Positions 7,925 to 44,506 of a DNA stretch of 44,611 nucleotides are shown piece by piece. A model generated the notes under the pieces. The model did no database searches and was not told the DNA's origin. It saw only the letters and a program-made list of their open reading frames with translations. Origin of the DNA: Candidatus Jettenia ecosi (GTDB lineage: Bacteria > Planctomycetota > Brocadiia > Brocadiales > Brocadiaceae); the NCBI GenBank assembly GCA_005524015.1, contig SULG01000023.1:1-44611 (forward strand), read 5' to 3'. The position numbers were made by a program, and so were the translations under genes. The number at the start of each line of letters is the position of its first letter. Position 1 is the first letter of the stretch.

Positions 7925-8096
7925 TATAGTACTCAATAGATGAAACCGAACAGTACTATAGATAGGGTGGCACGGACAAGCCATGTCCCCGTATGTCTTG
8001 AAAGGGGATTGTTTGTCCGTGATGGTGTAATGAAATCTTGGCTCATTTTGTCTGGTTTCATTATGTGCTGTTCGGTTTAATCTGTTGGATACTATA
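7925..8096. mobile_element. MITE-like element, type A copy 1 (172 bp)
   Basis: Terminal inverted repeats begin TATAGTACTCAATAGATG and, read from the other end, TATAGTATCCAACAGATT; both continue into AAACCGAACAG. The interior carries a second palindrome with GGCACGGACAAGCCATG and TTGTTTGTCCGTG arms. A copy of identical length at 26760-26931 differs at about eight positions by eye. There is no coding capacity. TA lies at both outer ends, as expected for elements moved by IS630/mariner-type transposases; that is inference. Confidence 0.8.
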
Positions 8097-26759: not shown

Positions 26760-26931
26760 TATAGTACTCAATAGATGAAACCGAACAGTATTTTAGATAG
26801 GGTGGCACGGACAAGCCATGTCCCCGTATATCTTGAACGGGGATTGTTTGTCCGTGATGGTGTAATGAAATCCTGGTTCATTTTGTCTGGTTTCATTATG
26901 CGCTGTTCGGTTTAATCTGTTGGAAACTATA
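26760..26931. mobile_element. MITE-like element, type A copy 2 (172 bp)
   Basis: It has the same length and ends as 7925-8096, with about eight differences by eye. The terminal inverted repeats, the internal GGCACGGACAAGCCATG/TTGTTTGTCCGTG palindrome and the outer TA bases are all retained. The high similarity suggests recent spread. The 26589-26759 stretch before it shows no feature. Confidence 0.82.
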
Positions 26932-36045: not shown

Positions 36046-36525
36046 CTATGGATGCCTTAGTCCAAAGTTCTTTGTGACGTAGCCGCCAGAAGTTATTGTT
36101 ACGGATTTAGTCTGTTTTACAAAACCAGAAGCTGAGGCTTCTAGTGTAAAGGTACCTGTTGGTGCTGAAAGCGTATATACTCCATCAGGCCCCCTACTAA
36201 TTGGACCAGCAATGACATTAGAACCAAGAAGAAGGCGCATACTTGGACCAGGTATGGCCGGGTCATTTGCATCATAGCCATTCATATCTGAGTCGTCCCT
36301 GACTGTTCCTGCAACTACTCCTCCTGGCTCTATAATGGAATTTGATATGCCGGGATCATTTGTACCATAGTCACTCAAATTTGAGTCACCCTTGGCTGTT
36401 CCTAAAACCATTCCTGCTGGCTCTGGAATGCCGCATGGACAGCTTTTACAACCTATAACTGATACACTTAATAACGCGGCTAGCACTGCCATTAGTCCAA
36501 ACAAACGTACATTTTTATTCCTCAT
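36046..36525 (-). CDS. Lipoprotein with carboxypeptidase-regulatory-like domain and internal duplication
   Basis: The 159-residue protein starting at 36525 has a lipoprotein signal ending VIGC (Cys26). An in-frame ATG at 36579 would add 18 charged residues, and the hydrophobic core argues for the shorter form. Residues about 33-63 and 65-94 are two copies of a 31-residue unit (EPAGMVLGTAKGDSN / EPGGVVAGTVRDDSD, each ending in NDP). The C-terminal 60 residues look like the beta-sandwich of CarboxypepD_reg domains (GVYTLSAPTGTFTLEASASG). It is likely surface or periplasmic. The duplicated segment appears to repeat the start of this domain, including a dockerin-like Asp/Asn-rich DxNxxDYGxND stretch. 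Confidence 0.78.
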   Translation of the reverse strand: MRNKNVRLFGLMAVLAALLSVSVIGCKSCPCGIPEPAGMVLGTAKGDSNLSDYGTNDPGISNSIIEPGGVVAGTVRDDSDMNGYDANDPAIPGPSMRLLLGSNVIAGPISRGPDGVYTLSAPTGTFTLEASASGFVKQTKSVTITSGGYVTKNFGLRHP

Positions 36526-36603
36526 ACTCACTTTTTCTCTCCCTTCTAACTTGTATTTGTCTCTGAAAGTAGGGTACATACCCTATACCGAATGCCTCTA
36601 GGC

Positions 36604-36963: not shown

Positions 36964-38307
36964 TTAAAAATACACAATGACGGAAGCAAGGAACAGGTGC
37001 TCATTGAGGTCAAAAGTGCCTGGTAAACCGAAGTCCGCACCGTCAACGTCATTTGCCCATCGGAACTGATATGCTCCATCAATACTTACCCTCTTAAAGG
37101 TAATACCACTTCCCGCACTGAAGCCGTACACATGGGTAGGTTCGTCTAAAGACGGTCTGGGGTCGTAAAAAAGTCCGCCACGGATGGGAATAATCATCTT
37201 TTGCCTAAACAGGAGGTACTCGGTACCAAACCGTACTGCATAGGTATCGTCAATATCCCTCTTGGCAGATACAAAACCCAAAGGACGTAGCTCGTTACCA
37301 AACTCATCCTTCTGTTTAAACTCTGACCAATCGGTCCATGTTGCATCCATGGAGAAGGATAATGAGTCGCTATAACGGAAACCCAATCCAGCGCCAAAGG
37401 ACATAGGATAATCTATTTCGAGATGCATCCTTTCATGAAATTGAGACTCGACTATCTGTGATGAAGTAACAAAAATATCACGGAAATTGGTAACGCGGTC
37501 AACATCTGCTGTATAGGGAGAATGGAAAACGGCACCAAAGGTGAGGCGCTTATTCTCCTTTTCCCATACATCCCAGAGTATGCCTGCCGTTACATTGACT
37601 GCCTGAAAATTTTTAAATGTAACATCTGTATCGGAAGTATTACTAAATGGAGTTATACCAGACGTACCAGACCTAAACTCGTGGATTTTTTCCTTCCACG
37701 CAAAGTCACCAAAAAATTCATCCGTATAGATATTTACCGCTACGCCTATTGATAATTTTGGCAGAATCTGCATGGCAATCGTAGGTGTCAGGGCGCCAAT
37801 GCCGCCTTTTAATTCGAAATCTGTAGCATGATTTTCACTTAATATAGGGGTTTCATTTTTAAAATTATAATCGACATCCAAATGAAAATCATATTTTTGC
37901 TGGTAATTTAAAGAAGCAACAAGGTTTTTCCTAAACACCTCAAATGGGTATGCAATACTGGCATAATTCAAATCTCCCCGGGATACCGATTCATTATCAA
38001 GTGTGAATTCCGATGCAAATCCTAGCCTATCGGGAGGATCAAAATCCTGTTGTGTGGATAAAAAGGAACCTACTACGGAAAGTTCTGGTCTTTCCAACTG
38101 TGTCAAACCGCCAGGATTCCACGATGCCGCCGTGGCATCATCGGCAACCGCAATAAAGGCGCCGCCCATTCCTAAAGCCCTGGCACCTGAACCAACGGGA
38201 AGCGGGACGGCGCTAACTTGACTGGTTAGTTGAGCAAAAGAGGTTTTGGTTAATAACGTGGAGAAGGGAATAAATATCACTATGAATAGAAAATATTTCG
38301 ATCTCAT
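36964..38307 (-). CDS. Outer-membrane beta-barrel protein, FadL/PorV-like
   Basis: The 447-residue protein has a signal peptide (MRSKYFLFIVIFIPFSTLL..., cleavage near residue 25). The family hallmark GARALGMGGAFIAVADDATA then SWNPGGL (about 42-68) is shared by FadL-like, PorV and UPF0164 outer-membrane proteins. Alternating hydrophobic strands and many aromatic residues continue to the C-terminal strand ending ASVIVYF, as in outer-membrane barrels. AGGAAAGGAAG lies upstream as ribosome binding site. It probably transports hydrophobic compounds or serves as a secretion partner; neither can be decided. It sits between the lipoprotein at 36046 and the CsgG-like genes. Confidence 0.83.
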   Translation of the reverse strand: MRSKYFLFIVIFIPFSTLLTKTSFAQLTSQVSAVPLPVGSGARALGMGGAFIAVADDATAASWNPGGLTQLERPELSVVGSFLSTQQDFDPPDRLGFASEFTLDNESVSRGDLNYASIAYPFEVFRKNLVASLNYQQKYDFHLDVDYNFKNETPILSENHATDFELKGGIGALTPTIAMQILPKLSIGVAVNIYTDEFFGDFAWKEKIHEFRSGTSGITPFSNTSDTDVTFKNFQAVNVTAGILWDVWEKENKRLTFGAVFHSPYTADVDRVTNFRDIFVTSSQIVESQFHERMHLEIDYPMSFGAGLGFRYSDSLSFSMDATWTDWSEFKQKDEFGNELRPLGFVSAKRDIDDTYAVRFGTEYLLFRQKMIIPIRGGLFYDPRPSLDEPTHVYGFSAGSGITFKRVSIDGAYQFRWANDVDGADFGLPGTFDLNEHLFLASVIVYF

Positions 38308-38382
38308 ATCTGCACTTCCTTTCCTCTAAGTGGATTCAAGCTTGCATTTCAGGTTCAGATTTACCTTCCCGCGGGTCCGCGC

Positions 38383-38867
38383 GGGTTCAGGTTTGTAACC
38401 TGAACCCTCTATTTATAGTACCAATTCAAGCCTGATTTTACTCTCGATGTTAGCAAATGATCACTTCCAATCCTCAGAACTCTCAACCTATTGTTTCCGC
38501 ACTGGAGATAATGAATTCCAATTTTTGGAATTATAGTATCCAAATGATGAAACCGAACATATCATCAACTGAAGAAGGATTACCCTGTCTGTCATTGCGA
38601 GGGTATTTTCCGAAGCAATCTCTTCTAAAATATTCAAGGGATTGCTTCGGACACTACCCTCGCAATGACATGTTAAGAATCCTCTCCATTTCATACACTT
38701 ACCTATGAGCCAAAGACTCTCAACTTTCCCCACATTCTGTTCGGTTTCATATGTTGGATGCTATAATCGTATAATCCCCAAGAACGGAGGACAATTCTTC
38801 AGGCTTTTCTAATGAAAAATTTTTCACAAATTTCAAACTATAGGGTTCAGGTTACAAACCTGAACCC
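38383..38867. mobile_element. Paired REP unit interrupted by a MITE
   Basis: Palindromes 38383-38407 and 38843-38867 (opposite orientation) enclose RAYT 3'-end remnant (38408 to about 38531; AATTCAAGCCTGATTTTACTC against ATTCAACTTTGATTTTACTC). A complete type B MITE follows, then about 75 bases of unrecognised AT-rich sequence. The nesting shows that the MITE inserted after the REP/RAYT unit. Confidence 0.7.
38532..38765. mobile_element. MITE-like element, type B copy 2 (234 bp)
   Basis: Ends TATAGTATCCAAATGATG...AAACCGAAC and CTGTTCGGTTTCATATG...GGATGCTATA match the terminal repeats of the other MITEs. The interior contains a full REP-like palindrome: CATTGCGAGGG...GAAGCAATC paired with GATTGCTTCGG...CCCTCGCAATG. 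It is related to 10966-11172. Confidence 0.78.
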
Positions 38868-38950
38868 GCATGTTGCCTTAACCTGCAAGGAACCCTACAC
38901 CCGCATGTAGATTCACATATAGCGCATTAATATCACCAAACCCTCTGGGC

Positions 38951-39090
38951 GGGTTCAGGTTTGCAACCTGAACCCTTATTTATAGCACCGACTTAACTAT
39001 GATTTTACCCTCGACGTTTGCGGATGACCATATCCAATCTTCAGGACTTTTTACATATTGTTTCCATACCAGGTTGGCATAAACAGAGAG
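38951..39090. mobile_element. REP palindrome plus RAYT 3'-end remnant, single-ended
   Basis: The palindrome 38951-38975 is followed by sequence matching the RAYT 3' end (ATAGCACCGACTTAACTATG..., CAATCTTCAGGACTTTT), breaking off near 39090. No partner palindrome is seen to its right. Confidence 0.65.
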
Positions 39091-39212: not shown

Positions 39213-41405
39213 TCATTTTGTTATCACAAAATCCCTCTTCTTTACCTTCTTTGCACCCTTCGTGCTTATTTTAGCAAATGAGGTATCGGGCTGTACCAGT
39301 ACAATCCTGGCAATGGCGTCCAAAGGTTCTTTGAGCACAAAATCGCCTTCTTTTACTTCACGAAATAAGAGCAGTTTCATCCCTAATTTAAGACCACTGG
39401 TTCCGCCGGCATCGATGTGGAACCCATTCCCTGAAACCCGGATAACGTTCCCCTCTATCAAGGGGAACTGTCGTTTCATTTTGAGCGATAATCCGTGCAC
39501 AAGCCAAGCAAGATTCTTCATACTTTTATCCTCATCATACACATCGACATGGGCAAGCACCTTTGTCGTTTCTGTATCTACGAGTTGCAGCGTTATGGTA
39601 ACACCTCTCAAATCCTCCTCCACAGCGCCAAAGAATATACCTTCGGCTGCATGGATTTTCCCGATCTTCACGGCCGTATCAGGAGAGGCAAGTTGTGTAT
39701 TGCTGATTTTTTGCTCACGGAGAATTTCTGCGAGTTTCGCCTGATCCCTTTCCACAAAGTTGAACCTCTTCGGTTCTTCGTCAAATGCCTTGAGCAGCAT
39801 AGAATAGAGGATTTCAGGTGAAACCTCCCGCTCCTCAAATGCCCTCAGGGGCAGCCACGCAACGGTATACCGGGCATCCGTTTCCAGCAGTTCAAAGGTC
39901 CTTTTGGTAATTTTTACCGGTGAGAGTTGCGCCTCATTTCCCTGGATGTCAATGGCTCTGACGGTAACGACATTTTCCCCCATAGTAAGCGGCAACAAGT
40001 AATTGAAGAAGATGTGTTTTCCTGGACGGATTTCTAATGGATATTGATTCACGAAGAGTTTGGCAACACCGCTGTCGTCATGTGCATCCATGCTAAAGAA
40101 GAGGTTTGCATCATGGACAATGGCAGGTTTTAAATCGGTATGTACGACAGGTGGGATATTATCCGAAGCAACACCTTGCGCAGGAGTTGATCCTTTTCCT
40201 TCCTTCTCCATATCTTTGCTGGTATAAGAGGAGGAAGAAGTACAGGGTGACAGCGCGGCAACTGCCTCGTGAGATGCTAAAAGACTCCTGGCTATGTACC
40301 TGTCCATTTTGCCCGATGCAACCATGAGAGGTGTATTTGCACGGTTAGCATATTGCCTCTTGTTCAGGATGTCTTCTGGCCATAATAGCGATGCCTTTTT
40401 CCCGATCTGCTCCTCGCCCTTTGTTTCATTTCCTGCTGCGTCGATTACTTTCAATGAGATTTTATCCAGGCTCGTTACAATAATATCCTGTTTAAAATGC
40501 ACCTCTTTACCCGGAATGATGGGTATCTCTGTATTATTGATATAGAGACGTTTTGCGGCATGGTCATCCTCAATAATCCCCTGGATAGTAGCGGTGTGCT
40601 TACCGTCTCTTTTGGTCATTTGTATATCATCCAGATAGAGAATTGGCGGGTGTATGTCCAGAATAAGGTTAAACTCCTGGCGGATACTCTTTCCCAGAAG
40701 GTCAAGGGCCTCAAGACTTATCGTATTTCTACCGGTATGAAGAAGAATATCCTCCTGAAAATACAGCCTCTTCTCGGCAAGTTCTACAAAAAGTCTCTTT
40801 CCGTGAACATGCATATCGCCAATATAGAAATCATCGGTGGCAAATCCTTTTAATTTTACCAGAGGCGTATTGACAACCATACCATCGGTATGAGAAGTAA
40901 TTTTGATCTCCGGCGGTTTCTGATCTCTTCCCGTGAGTTTCAGGATTGCCTCGTTACATTTATTTAAGTAGAATTTAGCCCTTGCAGAATCTTCTGTGGA
41001 AAGAGAGGTTTCTAGCTCCGCCTTCGCATCCTCGTATTTTTTCTGTTGGTAATAAACTATCCCAAGCTCACGATGGGCAAAGTACTCCCAGAAATGGAGT
41101 CCATAGCTTCTCGCCAGGCGTTGATCTTTGCTGCGAAGATTGATAGATTTTTTAAAATCACGGGCAGCCTCATCATAGTATCCCTCCTCGGCAAACCATC
41201 GTCCTCTTGCGTAATAGTTCCACCACTTCCCCTTATAAAGATTGAAGTCTTTGGCGATTTCTTCTTTTGAACGTCCAGGCCTAAAATAGTCCCGCCAGTT
41301 ATCCGTACTAACCGGTGACAGCGTTGTACAGCTTGCAAACGGTAAGGCAAATAATAGTACGGTAGTAATGTATTTGATTTCTTTATAGAGTATCTGTTTG
41401 CGCAT
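39213..41405 (-). CDS. Lipoprotein with TPR, Ig-like and CsgG/FlgO-like domains
   Basis: The 730-residue protein has a signal peptide ending FASC, so Cys26 is the probable lipidation site, although the -3 Phe is unusual. Residues about 60-160 contain TPR-like helices (WFAEEGYYDEAARDFKKSI, AHRELGIVYYQQKKYEDAKA). Residues 165-490 hold three or more repeated beta-domains with the pattern 'GRNTISLEALDLLGK' and 'GENVVTVRAIDIQGNE', like Ig/glucodextranase-B repeats. Residues about 505-640 resemble the CsgG/LpoB/FlgO nucleotide-free alpha-beta fold (FNFVERDQAKLAEILREQ, GKIHAAEGIFFGAV). The final 90 residues resemble FlgT-C. The start at 41405 lacks a good ribosome binding site. It is downstream of the caspase-like gene on the same strand. 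Confidence 0.78.
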   Translation of the reverse strand: MRKQILYKEIKYITTVLLFALPFASCTTLSPVSTDNWRDYFRPGRSKEEIAKDFNLYKGKWWNYYARGRWFAEEGYYDEAARDFKKSINLRSKDQRLARSYGLHFWEYFAHRELGIVYYQQKKYEDAKAELETSLSTEDSARAKFYLNKCNEAILKLTGRDQKPPEIKITSHTDGMVVNTPLVKLKGFATDDFYIGDMHVHGKRLFVELAEKRLYFQEDILLHTGRNTISLEALDLLGKSIRQEFNLILDIHPPILYLDDIQMTKRDGKHTATIQGIIEDDHAAKRLYINNTEIPIIPGKEVHFKQDIIVTSLDKISLKVIDAAGNETKGEEQIGKKASLLWPEDILNKRQYANRANTPLMVASGKMDRYIARSLLASHEAVAALSPCTSSSSYTSKDMEKEGKGSTPAQGVASDNIPPVVHTDLKPAIVHDANLFFSMDAHDDSGVAKLFVNQYPLEIRPGKHIFFNYLLPLTMGENVVTVRAIDIQGNEAQLSPVKITKRTFELLETDARYTVAWLPLRAFEEREVSPEILYSMLLKAFDEEPKRFNFVERDQAKLAEILREQKISNTQLASPDTAVKIGKIHAAEGIFFGAVEEDLRGVTITLQLVDTETTKVLAHVDVYDEDKSMKNLAWLVHGLSLKMKRQFPLIEGNVIRVSGNGFHIDAGGTSGLKLGMKLLLFREVKEGDFVLKEPLDAIARIVLVQPDTSFAKISTKGAKKVKKRDFVITK

Positions 41406-41529
41406 ATATAACTTTAATTTTTTTGCTTAGAGGTCATTCCAAGGTCTTAATTCAGTGTTTAGAATCTTTGAGATATAGTATATATAAGGAGAGAGATTTC
41501 ATACTCTGTAAGCCAATTCCAGGCTGGAT

Positions 41530-41588
41530 GGCACGGACAAACCATCCCTGTTCAAGACATACAGGAACGGGGATGGTTTGTCCGTGCC
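41530..41588. repeat. Large perfect-stem palindrome between the two CsgG-like genes
   Basis: GGCACGGACAAACCATCCC pairs with GGGATGGTTTGTCCGTGCC around a 21-base loop that is partly self-complementary (CTGTTC...). The same palindrome in diverged form is the core of the type A MITEs, and half of it recurs at about 44377-44427. It lies between 41405 and 41632 and could attenuate or stabilise the transcript. Confidence 0.8.
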
Positions 41589-41631
41589 ACCTCAAATACT
41601 GCTTAAGCTAACGCTTATGTAAGTAGCACCC

Positions 41632-43563
41632 CTATAACTTCCGCTTAGCAGTGATCTTCTCTTTGATCTTTATAGCGACATCGTTAGCCACAGTCCTCAA
41701 ATTTTCATCACCCTGAAAGGCATGCTCAAGGGTATCGATGAGGGTAGTTGTCGTATCCACAATCTCCATTCTTAAAACAAGCCGGCTAGATGCTTCTCCG
41801 AGGGAGACTCCACCGAAGCAGAGGAAGGCTGCCCCTTGTATCTTTCCTAACTCTATTCTGAATAACTCATCAGCAAGGATAGAGCCGCCAAGCCTTTGTT
41901 CCCTTAAAATCTCTTCCTGAAATTCCAGGTCCCTCTCTACCACGCTCAAATCCTCTTGATCCAATAACGCATCGATGATTTTTTGACGAAGTTTTTCCAT
42001 CTTACGTCTATTTGATAAAACCCCCATCTTCAAGCTGAATTCTTTCATAGATATAGGTATAACCCGTGGGACTTCTTCTGGCTTAGGGCTATTTTCTCTT
42101 GTTTTTTTCGAGATCTTAGATTTATTCTCTTTTAACTGTTCCTTTGCCATAGATTCTAATTCCTTAATAAGCGCATCAATATTCTCCTTTGTTTTTTCTA
42201 TATCTACTTTATTACGGGGAGATTCCGCATATTCCAGGCTACGCATAGATTCAGTATGTTCCAATTGCGTTTCATGCAAGGTGGCAGGATTTGCCCTTGC
42301 GAGTTCACGTTCTTCAACATTGATCAACTCTATATATGCATCTGTCGTCTCATCTGAATTAACAAAAACGATATCTGACACATCCGCGCAATTCCTCTTT
42401 TTTAATGTTATCGGATAGGTACCGCTCATGAGCTTAATATTCAAAGGGGTTGTACCAACCTCCTTCCCATCCACATATACCGATGCTCCTTCAGGATTTG
42501 TAGTAATTTGCAAGGTTCCCAGACATGATATCTCAGTTATCTTCTCATTTTCTCTGAGAGAAGTTTTCACACCGGGAAATCCAAGAGGAAGGTTGTTGTC
42601 GAAATTACCTGATGTATCGGGATGTTGGGTGTTCTGTGTTGCCCGTTTTACCTTTTCCTCTAAAAAGTCGAATGCCTCCACAAGGGTCACAATGCCATTT
42701 CTATTTCCCTCTTCATCTGCCTTCCCCTTCATTCCTTCCAGCAAATAATAGGTAAATACGCCATGTCCCCCTCCCCAGAGATCAGATTCCATAGAGGCCT
42801 CACTAGCCCGGCTGGCGCTCACAACCCCCCAACCTTCTCTCGTTGATTTCAGGGTGGAAATCGCTACATTGACGGTATTTGAAACACCTCTCGTGCCTAT
42901 GGTACTTGTAGTAAGCCCTGTGCCATGACAGACATCAGCAAAAAATACAAGTCTCCTGGATGAGATATACCGCTTCATATCAGCATTCACATGCTCCATA
43001 AGATAAGCCGTTGCAGGTAAACTATTGAGTTTGCTATCATACGTCAACAAATAGAGGTCATCGGGCCTGCCTGGTTCGGGTTCACCATGGCATGCCATAA
43101 AGATCATAACAAAATCAGAATCGGTTGCTTGCCTGAGAAAACCTGTAATGGCTAATTTAACATTCTTAAGGGTTGCCTGATTGTTCTTTAACAGCAAGAC
43201 ATTTTCTTTATGGAAACTGCCACCAACCGGGCTTGTTATAAAATCATAAAAGGCCTGAGCGTCAGCATCGGCATATTTTAAATCGGGTATCTTTGGATCT
43301 TTATAATCAGATATACCAACCACAACGGCGTAACGCTGGATGTGCTTGTCCTCAAAGTATTGTTTTGGTGGTACTATGCCCCGGATGAGTTGCCTACTGG
43401 CGTGTACAATATCCCTGTCGTGCAACAATCCATTATTCTTTTGATTATCCGTAACTACCTTTTCAGCGCTTTGAGAAAATACTGAGGTATTAAAACCAAA
43501 TAGAAATAAAGGCAATAGAAGGCGGATTAGATTTTTTGTCATGCGGGAGGGGTTATTACTCAT
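41632..43563 (-). CDS. Secreted caspase-like protease with PEGA and CsgG/FlgO-like domains
   Basis: The 643-residue protein has a signal peptide (about 1-30) followed by a C14 caspase-like domain (75-330). The catalytic dyad is visible: His159 in IFMACHGEPE and Cys212 in FFADVCHGTG. A PEGA domain follows (about 349-412, LQITTNPEGASVYVDGKEVG), then a charged coiled-coil stretch (about 415-510). The C-terminal domain, with LSVVERDLEFQEEILREQ and GKIQGAAFLCFGGV, closely resembles the C-terminal region of the neighbouring 730-residue lipoprotein. AAAGGA lies 10 bases before the ATG. The probable location is periplasm or envelope. Caspase-like proteases usually prefer Arg/Lys or Asp at P1; specificity here is unknown. 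Confidence 0.87.
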   Translation of the reverse strand: MSNNPSRMTKNLIRLLLPLFLFGFNTSVFSQSAEKVVTDNQKNNGLLHDRDIVHASRQLIRGIVPPKQYFEDKHIQRYAVVVGISDYKDPKIPDLKYADADAQAFYDFITSPVGGSFHKENVLLLKNNQATLKNVKLAITGFLRQATDSDFVMIFMACHGEPEPGRPDDLYLLTYDSKLNSLPATAYLMEHVNADMKRYISSRRLVFFADVCHGTGLTTSTIGTRGVSNTVNVAISTLKSTREGWGVVSASRASEASMESDLWGGGHGVFTYYLLEGMKGKADEEGNRNGIVTLVEAFDFLEEKVKRATQNTQHPDTSGNFDNNLPLGFPGVKTSLRENEKITEISCLGTLQITTNPEGASVYVDGKEVGTTPLNIKLMSGTYPITLKKRNCADVSDIVFVNSDETTDAYIELINVEERELARANPATLHETQLEHTESMRSLEYAESPRNKVDIEKTKENIDALIKELESMAKEQLKENKSKISKKTRENSPKPEEVPRVIPISMKEFSLKMGVLSNRRKMEKLRQKIIDALLDQEDLSVVERDLEFQEEILREQRLGGSILADELFRIELGKIQGAAFLCFGGVSLGEASSRLVLRMEIVDTTTTLIDTLEHAFQGDENLRTVANDVAIKIKEKITAKRKL

Positions 43564-43679: not shown

Positions 43680-44113
43680 AAAGTACCATGTATATTGTTA
43701 TTCCTGTATATTTCCCATGTTGCCACCGTATGCTCTCGTTCATGCTGTTTTCTGAATAGAAATACTTGATACTATACCTGAAGAATGAAGGTAAAAGAGC
43801 ACAAGATACTGCATAATATACCTTTATCACAAATCGATTATCTTTTATATCCCATAATTTTATCCTGGTGTTCTCTCTACTGATAATGTATCTAATCTAT
43901 CAATAAAATTACTATAAACGAAGAAGTTATAAATACTTAAATACAAATATACTGAAAGATCATAGTCATTTTGCAATACAGAAATTTTTTAAGATATAAC
44001 TACATGTATACATTACCTATCAGATCTTTTCACGAAATGATGCAATTACTTTATTTAAGTAACAAACTTTCCTTATAAAGTAATTTTCTTTTATGAGACG
44101 TTTTGGCTTAAAT

Positions 44114-44181
44114 GATACAAAAGTGTCTCACGAGACACTTTTGTCTTGGGACACTTTTGTATCATGAGACACTTTTGTATC
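44114..44181. repeat. Cluster of four GACACTTTTGT motifs, one inverted
   Basis: GATACAAAAGTGTCTC (44114-44129) is the exact complement of GAGACACTTTTGTATC (44166-44181). Two more direct copies lie between (GAGACACTTTTGT at 44132 and GGGACACTTTTGTATC at 44148). The 68-base array can form alternative hairpins. It could be a transposon end or multi-site protein-binding array. Confidence 0.7.
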
Positions 44182-44506
44182 AGATGGATCTGATATTCGA
44201 GGGATTCTTCTCTTAAGTCGAAGAAATATTTTTTATCTGACCCAGTCGAAATATGGAGAAGGGAAGAAAAAAAGGAAAGGATACTGGATTCCCGATAAAG
44301 ACATTCGGGAATGACAAATATAAAACAGGGAATGAGAGAAAAAACATGTAGGGATGACAGGAAAAACACCTGGGGATGAACTCTGCATGGACAAATAATC
44401 CCTGTTCAAGACATACAGAGGCATGGCCCCATATGCATCAAGCTAAGAATAGTTTTCCATGAAAAAGGGGTATCCCTTTGGAAAAAGAACAATGCGTGTC
44501 CCTGTT

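Follow-up and report, generated by a model that had tools for sequence, protein, structure and literature searches.

A conserved operon of anammox bacteria combines an exported caspase-PEGA protein, a CsgG-like lipoprotein and a FadL-type barrel and may act in trans-envelope sensing or processing

The window analysed here is a stretch of 44,611 nucleotides from an anammox genome of the order Brocadiales (Candidatus Jettenia ecosi; G000, 3.86 Mb), and its subject is a cassette on the reverse strand that encodes a caspase-PEGA protein (P0001), a TPR/Ig lipoprotein (P0002) and a FadL-type barrel (P0003), beside which lies the gene of a small lipoprotein-like protein (P0004); coordinates are collected in Table 1. 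An initial annotation of the first two genes had proposed an exported protein with a PEGA domain and a caspase dyad, His159 and Cys212. This description was borne out by a Sec signal read by eye and by the Pfam domains, with Peptidase_C14 matched at an E-value of 1.5e-14 over residues 77-318, and by an alignment of 16 orthologues, 44-97% identical to the window copy, in which His159, Asp210 and Cys212 are invariant (16/16) and the His-Cys dyad of C14 caspases is correctly placed. Because these three residues are invariant, the caspase is probably catalytically active. Asp101 is likewise invariant, and Asp210 sits two residues before Cys212; from this pair of acidic residues a basic-residue substrate pocket is expected, which suggests cleavage after Arg or Lys as in paracaspases and metacaspases. 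AlphaFold models of the caspase and the lipoprotein are of modest confidence (mean predicted local distance difference test, pLDDT, 53 and 62), their C-terminal parts being of low confidence. In the model of P0001 the caspase domain matches the fold of metacaspases, legumains and MALT1 at Z-scores of 14-17. PDB searches with the caspase sequence (phmmer) and with the caspase profile returned zero matches.

The second gene product had been described as an exported TPR/Ig/CsgG-like lipoprotein, and it carries a lipobox-like FAS-Cys26, read by eye, together with Pfam matches to TPR_2, Glucodextran_B/Ig-type and CsgG domains, the last in P0002 itself with an E-value of 4e-5, above the gathering cut-off. 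The cysteine is kept in 15 of the 16 sequences in its own orthologue alignment, and by the +2 rule of E. coli the protein would be sorted to the outer membrane. A PDB search with the lipoprotein profile gave a weak TPR match only, and the VIA-align lists of both models are taken up by matches to caspase, TPR and Ig domains and so do not bear on the CsgG-like regions. The third protein matches PF03349 with an E-value of 2.8e-20 (72.6 bits against a cut-off of 29.7), and its profile matches FadL-type structures in the PDB, which we take to be FadL itself from E. coli and a homologue from Pseudomonas.

Table 1. Coordinates of the cassette genes and their features in the window
Feature	Coordinates	Strand	Basis
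P0001, secreted caspase-PEGA-CsgG-like protein, 643 amino acids	41632..43563	-	Open reading frame; orthologues in 20 Brocadiales genomes
P0001, putative Sec-type signal peptide, ~residues 1-30	43474..43563	-	By eye: basic n-region, hydrophobic core, small residue before Gln
P0001, caspase (C14) domain, residues 77-318; His159 at 43087-43089, Cys212 at 42928-42930, and Asp210	42610..43335	-	Pfam; fold; invariance
P0001, PEGA domain, residues 349-414	42322..42519	-	Pfam, E 3e-17
P0001, CsgG/LpoB/PelC-like C-terminal domain, ~residues 502-642	41638..42060	-	HHalign to P0002; Foldseek; predicted secondary structure
P0002, TPR/Ig/CsgG-like lipoprotein, 730 amino acids	39213..41405	-	Open reading frame; orthologues in 22 genomes
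P0002, lipobox Cys26, Thr next, no Asp at +2	41328..41330	-	Alignment, Cys in 15/16
P0002, TPR helical region, ~residues 61-158	40932..41225	-	Pfam TPR_2; matches HOP TPR2A, Z 15
P0002, two Ig/Glucodextran_B-type domains, residues 165-335	40401..40913	-	Pfam; fold matches
P0002, third Ig-type domain, ~residues 418-503	39897..40154	-	Model strands, pLDDT ~80; Big_13 in 12/16 orthologues
P0002, CsgG/LpoB-like domain, ~residues 505-650	39456..39893	-	CsgG in 15/16, LpoB in 11/16 orthologues; HHalign to P0001
P0002, FlgT_C-like C-terminal tail, ~residues 651-730	39216..39455	-	PF16538 in 5/16 orthologues, best E 5e-6
P0003, FadL/TodX-type outer-membrane barrel, 447 amino acids, third cassette gene	36964..38307	-	PF03349; PDB profile matches; position after lipoprotein in 18 genomes
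P0004, small lipoprotein-like protein, C-terminal carboxypeptidase-regulatory-like domain	36046..36579	-	PF13620, E 4e-6, below its cut-off

Both the caspase protein and the lipoprotein contain the motif VERD..EILREQ..GKI.AA..FG.V, and the best other match of each in the whole genome is the C-terminus of its partner (E-values 3.8e-6 and 7.5e-6). The similarity of the two C-terminal domains that had been noticed initially was confirmed by HHalign, which aligned their profiles over 98 columns with a probability of 97.9% and an E-value of 4e-13, against less than 2% for each of six control comparisons between other domains; this profile-profile comparison gave no sign that the two C-termini fold differently. 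Their identity is only about 30%. It is through this alignment to P0002, and without a direct Pfam match, that the C-terminus of P0001 is assigned to the family. Foldseek with the P0001 model listed caspases first and then PelC, CT253, GNA1162 and CsgG, at E-values of 2e-3 to 1e-2 for a region partly below a pLDDT of 50, and the predicted strand and helix order of that region, b-a-b-a-a-b-b-b-a, would be compatible with a CsgG/PelC-type fold. Judged by sequence comparison, both proteins carry the same CsgG/LpoB/PelC-type domain in their C-terminal region. Domains of the CsgG, PelC and LpoB types are mostly homo-oligomers or paired with unrelated partners. VERD..ILxEQ is a general CsgG/LpoB/FlgO signature, and sharing it does not by itself establish that the two proteins bind each other.

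Importantly, the two genes travel together. Named relatives of the window genome are Brocadia, Kuenenia hertensis and Anammoxibacter. Among 62 Brocadiales genomes, 20 have an orthologue of the caspase, and in 20/20 of these the lipoprotein gene adjoins it on the same strand, often at a spacing of 7-20 bp or with an overlap (in 4/20 loci the contig ends inside the pair or directly behind it). The conserved pairing in many genomes that the initial annotation had named as support, with homologues being neighbours elsewhere, was therefore found inside the order, and it spans two families, that of Brocadia and Kuenenia and that of Anammoxibacter. Two further genomes carry the lipoprotein gene at a contig end, bringing those with a lipoprotein orthologue to 22. 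Downstream of the lipoprotein gene, a FadL/TodX-type barrel is encoded in 18 genomes, with a shortened lipoprotein paralogue intervening in Brocadia carolinensis, B. pituitae and genomes related to these; the pair as proposed thus stands, but the unit is larger than two proteins, since the barrel gene lies beyond the bounds first drawn for it.

In a scan of GTDB genomes, 17 loci came from Brocadiales, and five further, more distant matches were to the caspase domain only. Among 392 Planctomycetota genomes the matches listed from outside the order extend over the caspase domain and leave out the C-terminal one. CsgG-domain proteins occur in 22 of the 53 Planctomycetota genomes outside Brocadiales that have a relative of the caspase, with 0 adjacent among the matches listed. 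The remark that this exact pair belongs to no described system also held in the literature searched, where the combination of caspase, PEGA and CsgG was not found and co-occurrences of the terms were due to chance. We conclude that the gene combination is a conserved operon, built from domains that are known individually, for which the literature searched gives no earlier description. Separately, a deltaproteobacterial contig (L112) has the gene order TPR protein, weakly CsgG-like lipoprotein (below cut-off), unknown protein and caspase; this caspase is 47% identical to P0001 over 269 residues with the lipoprotein gene two genes upstream, and by sequence the arrangement is a possible parallel of the Brocadiales pair.

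In relatives of the window genome the operon is longer. A gene for a CHASE2-class III cyclase, whose class III catalytic signature residues are retained, lies directly upstream in seven mapped loci. In G020, G030, G039 and G040 a propeller-protein gene and the cyclase gene precede the caspase gene; in G001, G002 and G029 the cyclase is present and the propeller gene is not beside it; and in G012, G013 and G034 it is the propeller gene that adjoins the caspase. Where complete, the propeller protein has about 1400-1500 amino acids and comprises a PQQ/BamB-type propeller, PKD, a C13-like domain and C-terminal CarboxypepD_reg domains. The idea that it is a second active peptidase was rejected: Asn replaces the catalytic Cys of the C13-like domain in 13/13 sequences and the His is often missing, which makes this domain a pseudo-peptidase. 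In this sample the secreted pseudo-legumain propeller/PKD protein (L073:811-5037 and relatives) is restricted to cassette-bearing genomes. Caspases outside the window's clade carry an additional FecR-like N-terminal segment, present in 13 proteins of which 12 come from cyclase-bearing genomes, the exception being G012, an 84% complete genome; the caspases devoid of it come, 7/7, from genomes without the cyclase. The window's clade has thus lost the cyclase, the pseudo-legumain propeller protein and the FecR-like caspase N-terminus, and the loss of FecR and cyclase maps as one event to the base of this clade (tree support 98/96).

The three genes that remain are maintained. Between G000 and a relative, G027, the ratio of nonsynonymous to synonymous substitution rates (dN/dS) amounts to 0.11 in the caspase gene, 0.12 in the lipoprotein gene and 0.16 in that of the barrel, which shows that the remainder is under purifying selection in the window's lineage. 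The cassette has decayed elsewhere: G028 holds a 47-amino-acid remnant and G016 caspase fragments with stops. G031, which belongs to the Kuenenia group and is assembled in one contig, lacks the caspase, and stops interrupt its orthologues of the lipoprotein and the barrel (L085, G031:C1:1360001-1379000). Taken as read from sequence, the domains, catalytic residues, gene order, co-loss and purifying selection can be regarded as established. The initial proposal of an envelope-located proteolytic assembly is supported in part, namely for the shared fold, the export of a caspase whose dyad is intact and the conservation of the pairing.

We propose, with a probability of roughly 0.42, that the three genes encode the outer arm of a trans-envelope sensing or processing complex in anammox bacteria, in which a FadL channel and a lipoprotein scaffold would be joined by a tethered caspase; here we infer the envelope location, the physical complex, the proteolysis and its substrates, the signal and its direction, and the recruitment through the shared fold. 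The FadL-type barrel would admit or sense a hydrophobic or surface signal, the long TPR/Ig lipoprotein would serve as the scaffold from its anchor in the outer membrane, and the secreted caspase would be held close to this scaffold, both through its PEGA domain and through the CsgG/PelC-type domains, which would oligomerise like with like, so that the engaged complex would have the caspase cut a periplasmic or surface substrate. In the older form, with its FecR-like caspase, CHASE2-adenylate/guanylate cyclase and pseudo-legumain, the complex would probably have signalled to the inner membrane by way of a cyclic nucleotide; the window's clade would have retained the proteolytic arm on the outside and lost the arm with the cyclase. 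The presence of the cyclase and the propeller protein in the older operon shifts the likely function toward trans-envelope sensing or processing, and the three-gene core, in which the exported protease and the scaffold lipoprotein share a domain whose relatives are ring-forming and are accompanied by an outer-membrane channel, would most simply be read as a single envelope complex that tethers and gates the protease.

Several points weigh against this proposal. Overall confidence in the AlphaFold models is low (mean pLDDT 53 and 62), the FecR-like segment is unrecognised by Pfam even at an E-value of 10 so that its label rests on a motif, and the co-loss of FecR and cyclase, though coherent, is a single event and not an independent replication. 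G000 has no CHASE2-cyclase of the cassette type, and signalling there therefore cannot work as in the relatives. A more explicit relay can be drawn, in which an outer-membrane FadL-type sensor would activate the caspase inside a CsgG/PelC-like ring in the periplasm, the caspase of the full operon would switch a CHASE2 receptor cyclase through its FecR-like domain, and surface proteolysis would set cyclic-nucleotide levels; we consider such a relay rather unlikely. Finally, Sec signal peptides are used by proteins of the anammox organelle and of the envelope alike (PMC2881027), and Sec-exported anammox proteins may go to the anammoxosome. That the caspase acts in this organelle instead of the outer envelope is nevertheless highly improbable in our view, its constant partners being a lipoprotein and a FadL-type outer-membrane barrel.

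The main rival, which we judge rather unlikely, is a surface-protein maturation device that would work like PorU and PorV of the type IX secretion system (T9SS), with the caspase as processing protease or transpeptidase and the barrel as a shuttle for cargo bearing CarboxypepD_reg, a beta-sandwich domain, at the C-terminus. The cassette shares with T9SS a clan CD peptidase and a FadL-superfamily barrel, proteins ending in CarboxypepD_reg recur beside the barrel family (P0004, the protein of L123:16-963 and its G027 equivalent, L134:5244-6062, and the propeller protein of the full operon), and this domain type matches the anammox S-layer model. Such domains are, however, common among secreted proteins. 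Moreover, the peptidase is of family C14 and not C25 like PorU, PF01364 having no match in G000; the PorV-family models stay below their cut-offs (52.6 against 90 bits) whereas FadL/TodX scores well; and SprA gave matches in 0/10 genomes, with control genomes equally silent. One might also suppose that the CsgG-like domains of P0001 and P0002 do not bind mutually, being either separate homo-oligomers or leftovers of a duplication, and that the caspase serves general envelope quality control and is co-transcribed for convenience. The usual behaviour of CsgG, PelC and LpoB domains, the identity of only about 30% and the window's gaps of 226 and 905 bp, one of which holds a dispersed palindromic repeat, would agree with this, but the pair is kept in every caspase-bearing genome of two families and is tightly spaced in many, and we hold this independence to be unlikely. 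A cell-death or anti-phage module, in which an executioner caspase is released by damage and the cyclase belongs to an alarm circuit, seems very improbable. Cell-death and defence systems of bacteria are known to contain caspases, a PADLOC caspase match has an E-value of 4e-11 and the cyclase domain of a relative matches Pycsar cyclases; yet the caspase and the lipoprotein are exported, the cyclase has CHASE2, the operon contains no Pycsar effector or NLR/EACC-type partner, and the EACC1-caspase model NF047832 reaches 81 bits against a cut-off of 140.

Among described systems, the closest functional precedent is NsrA of Sinorhizobium meliloti, an outer-membrane barrel required for perceiving an outside protein, to which the CHASE2 cyclases CyaD1, CyaD2 and CyaK answer with cyclic AMP (PMC7529298, PMC13001267). 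The older Brocadiales operon also encodes a barrel and a CHASE2-cyclase; in contrast, no caspase or CsgG-like lipoprotein is described in the NsrA system, its barrel forms part (about residues 600-1200) of a large protein whereas P0003 is a 447-amino-acid FadL-type barrel, and the window genome has no such cyclase. In the MtxA cluster of magnetotactic bacteria, a gene for a TPR/Ig-like protein adjoins a CHASE2-adenylate cyclase gene, and the parts of the source available to us (PMC4439547) report no caspase, PEGA or CsgG-like domain for it. Prokaryotic caspase homologues, or orthocaspases, share the C14 domain with its His-Cys dyad; as far as the accessible text of Asplund-Samuelsson 2012 (PMC3501461) goes, they occur in operons with envelope proteins and in one CHASE2 fusion, and are associated neither with PEGA or FlgO nor with a cyclase. 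With CsgG, PelC, LpoB and FlgT the cassette shares both C-terminal domains, and the end of the lipoprotein, CsgG-like and then FlgT_C-like, recalls flagellar FlgT, but here these domains are fused to caspase-PEGA and TPR-Ig parts and no curli, Pel or flagellar genes were recognised adjacent to them. Bacterial caspases have mostly been treated as cytoplasmic death or defence enzymes; the caspase of the cassette is exported, conserved and apparently active, and gene order links it with a lipoprotein and an outer-membrane channel, to which relatives add a receptor cyclase. Through the cassette, a physiological role of a bacterial caspase that is secreted becomes accessible to experiment; it is also a candidate system for sensing or processing at the surface of anammox bacteria, a group in which little is known of the envelope.

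The barrel family keeps an NPA-like hatch motif, ADDATAASWNP, invariant in 15 sequences. Between G000 and G027 the synonymous divergence (dS) of the barrel (window 36964-38307 against L069:8765-10048) is 1.2, that of the two neighbouring genes 0.14-0.23, and the high value looks as if the barrel copy had been exchanged in one of these two lineages. A second barrel of G000, about 65% identical to P0003, lies at 1032-2402 of L123 (G000:C39) and adjoins LemA and TPM-domain genes and the gene of a PKD-CarboxypepD_reg protein (L123 16-963), a layout that recurs in G027. The G014 barrel (L079, G014:C61:33981-35319) is split over two frames by a frameshift or a sequencing error. Relatives of P0004 adjoin the barrel in four other genomes, making it a frequent and not a constant neighbour, and a profile scan of the window matched an anammox-specific S-layer model near the cassette.

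Repeats lie around the genes of the window, where the caspase and lipoprotein genes are 226 bp and the lipoprotein and barrel genes 905 bp apart. The former gap contains a palindromic repeat (41529-41589); a 171-bp stretch that includes it matches the genome at about 49 other places, and two of these fall inside the window (7966-8021 and 26801-26856). In the latter gap, 38376-39065 holds a cluster of palindromic repeats (GGGTTCAGGTTNNNAACCTGAACCC, TGTCATTGCGAGGGTA and others) and also an 89-bp sequence in two copies at a distance of 567 bp. Upstream of the caspase gene, at 44112-44182, tandem and inverted copies of a 21-nucleotide unit (TGTCTCACGAGACACTTTTGT) are found.

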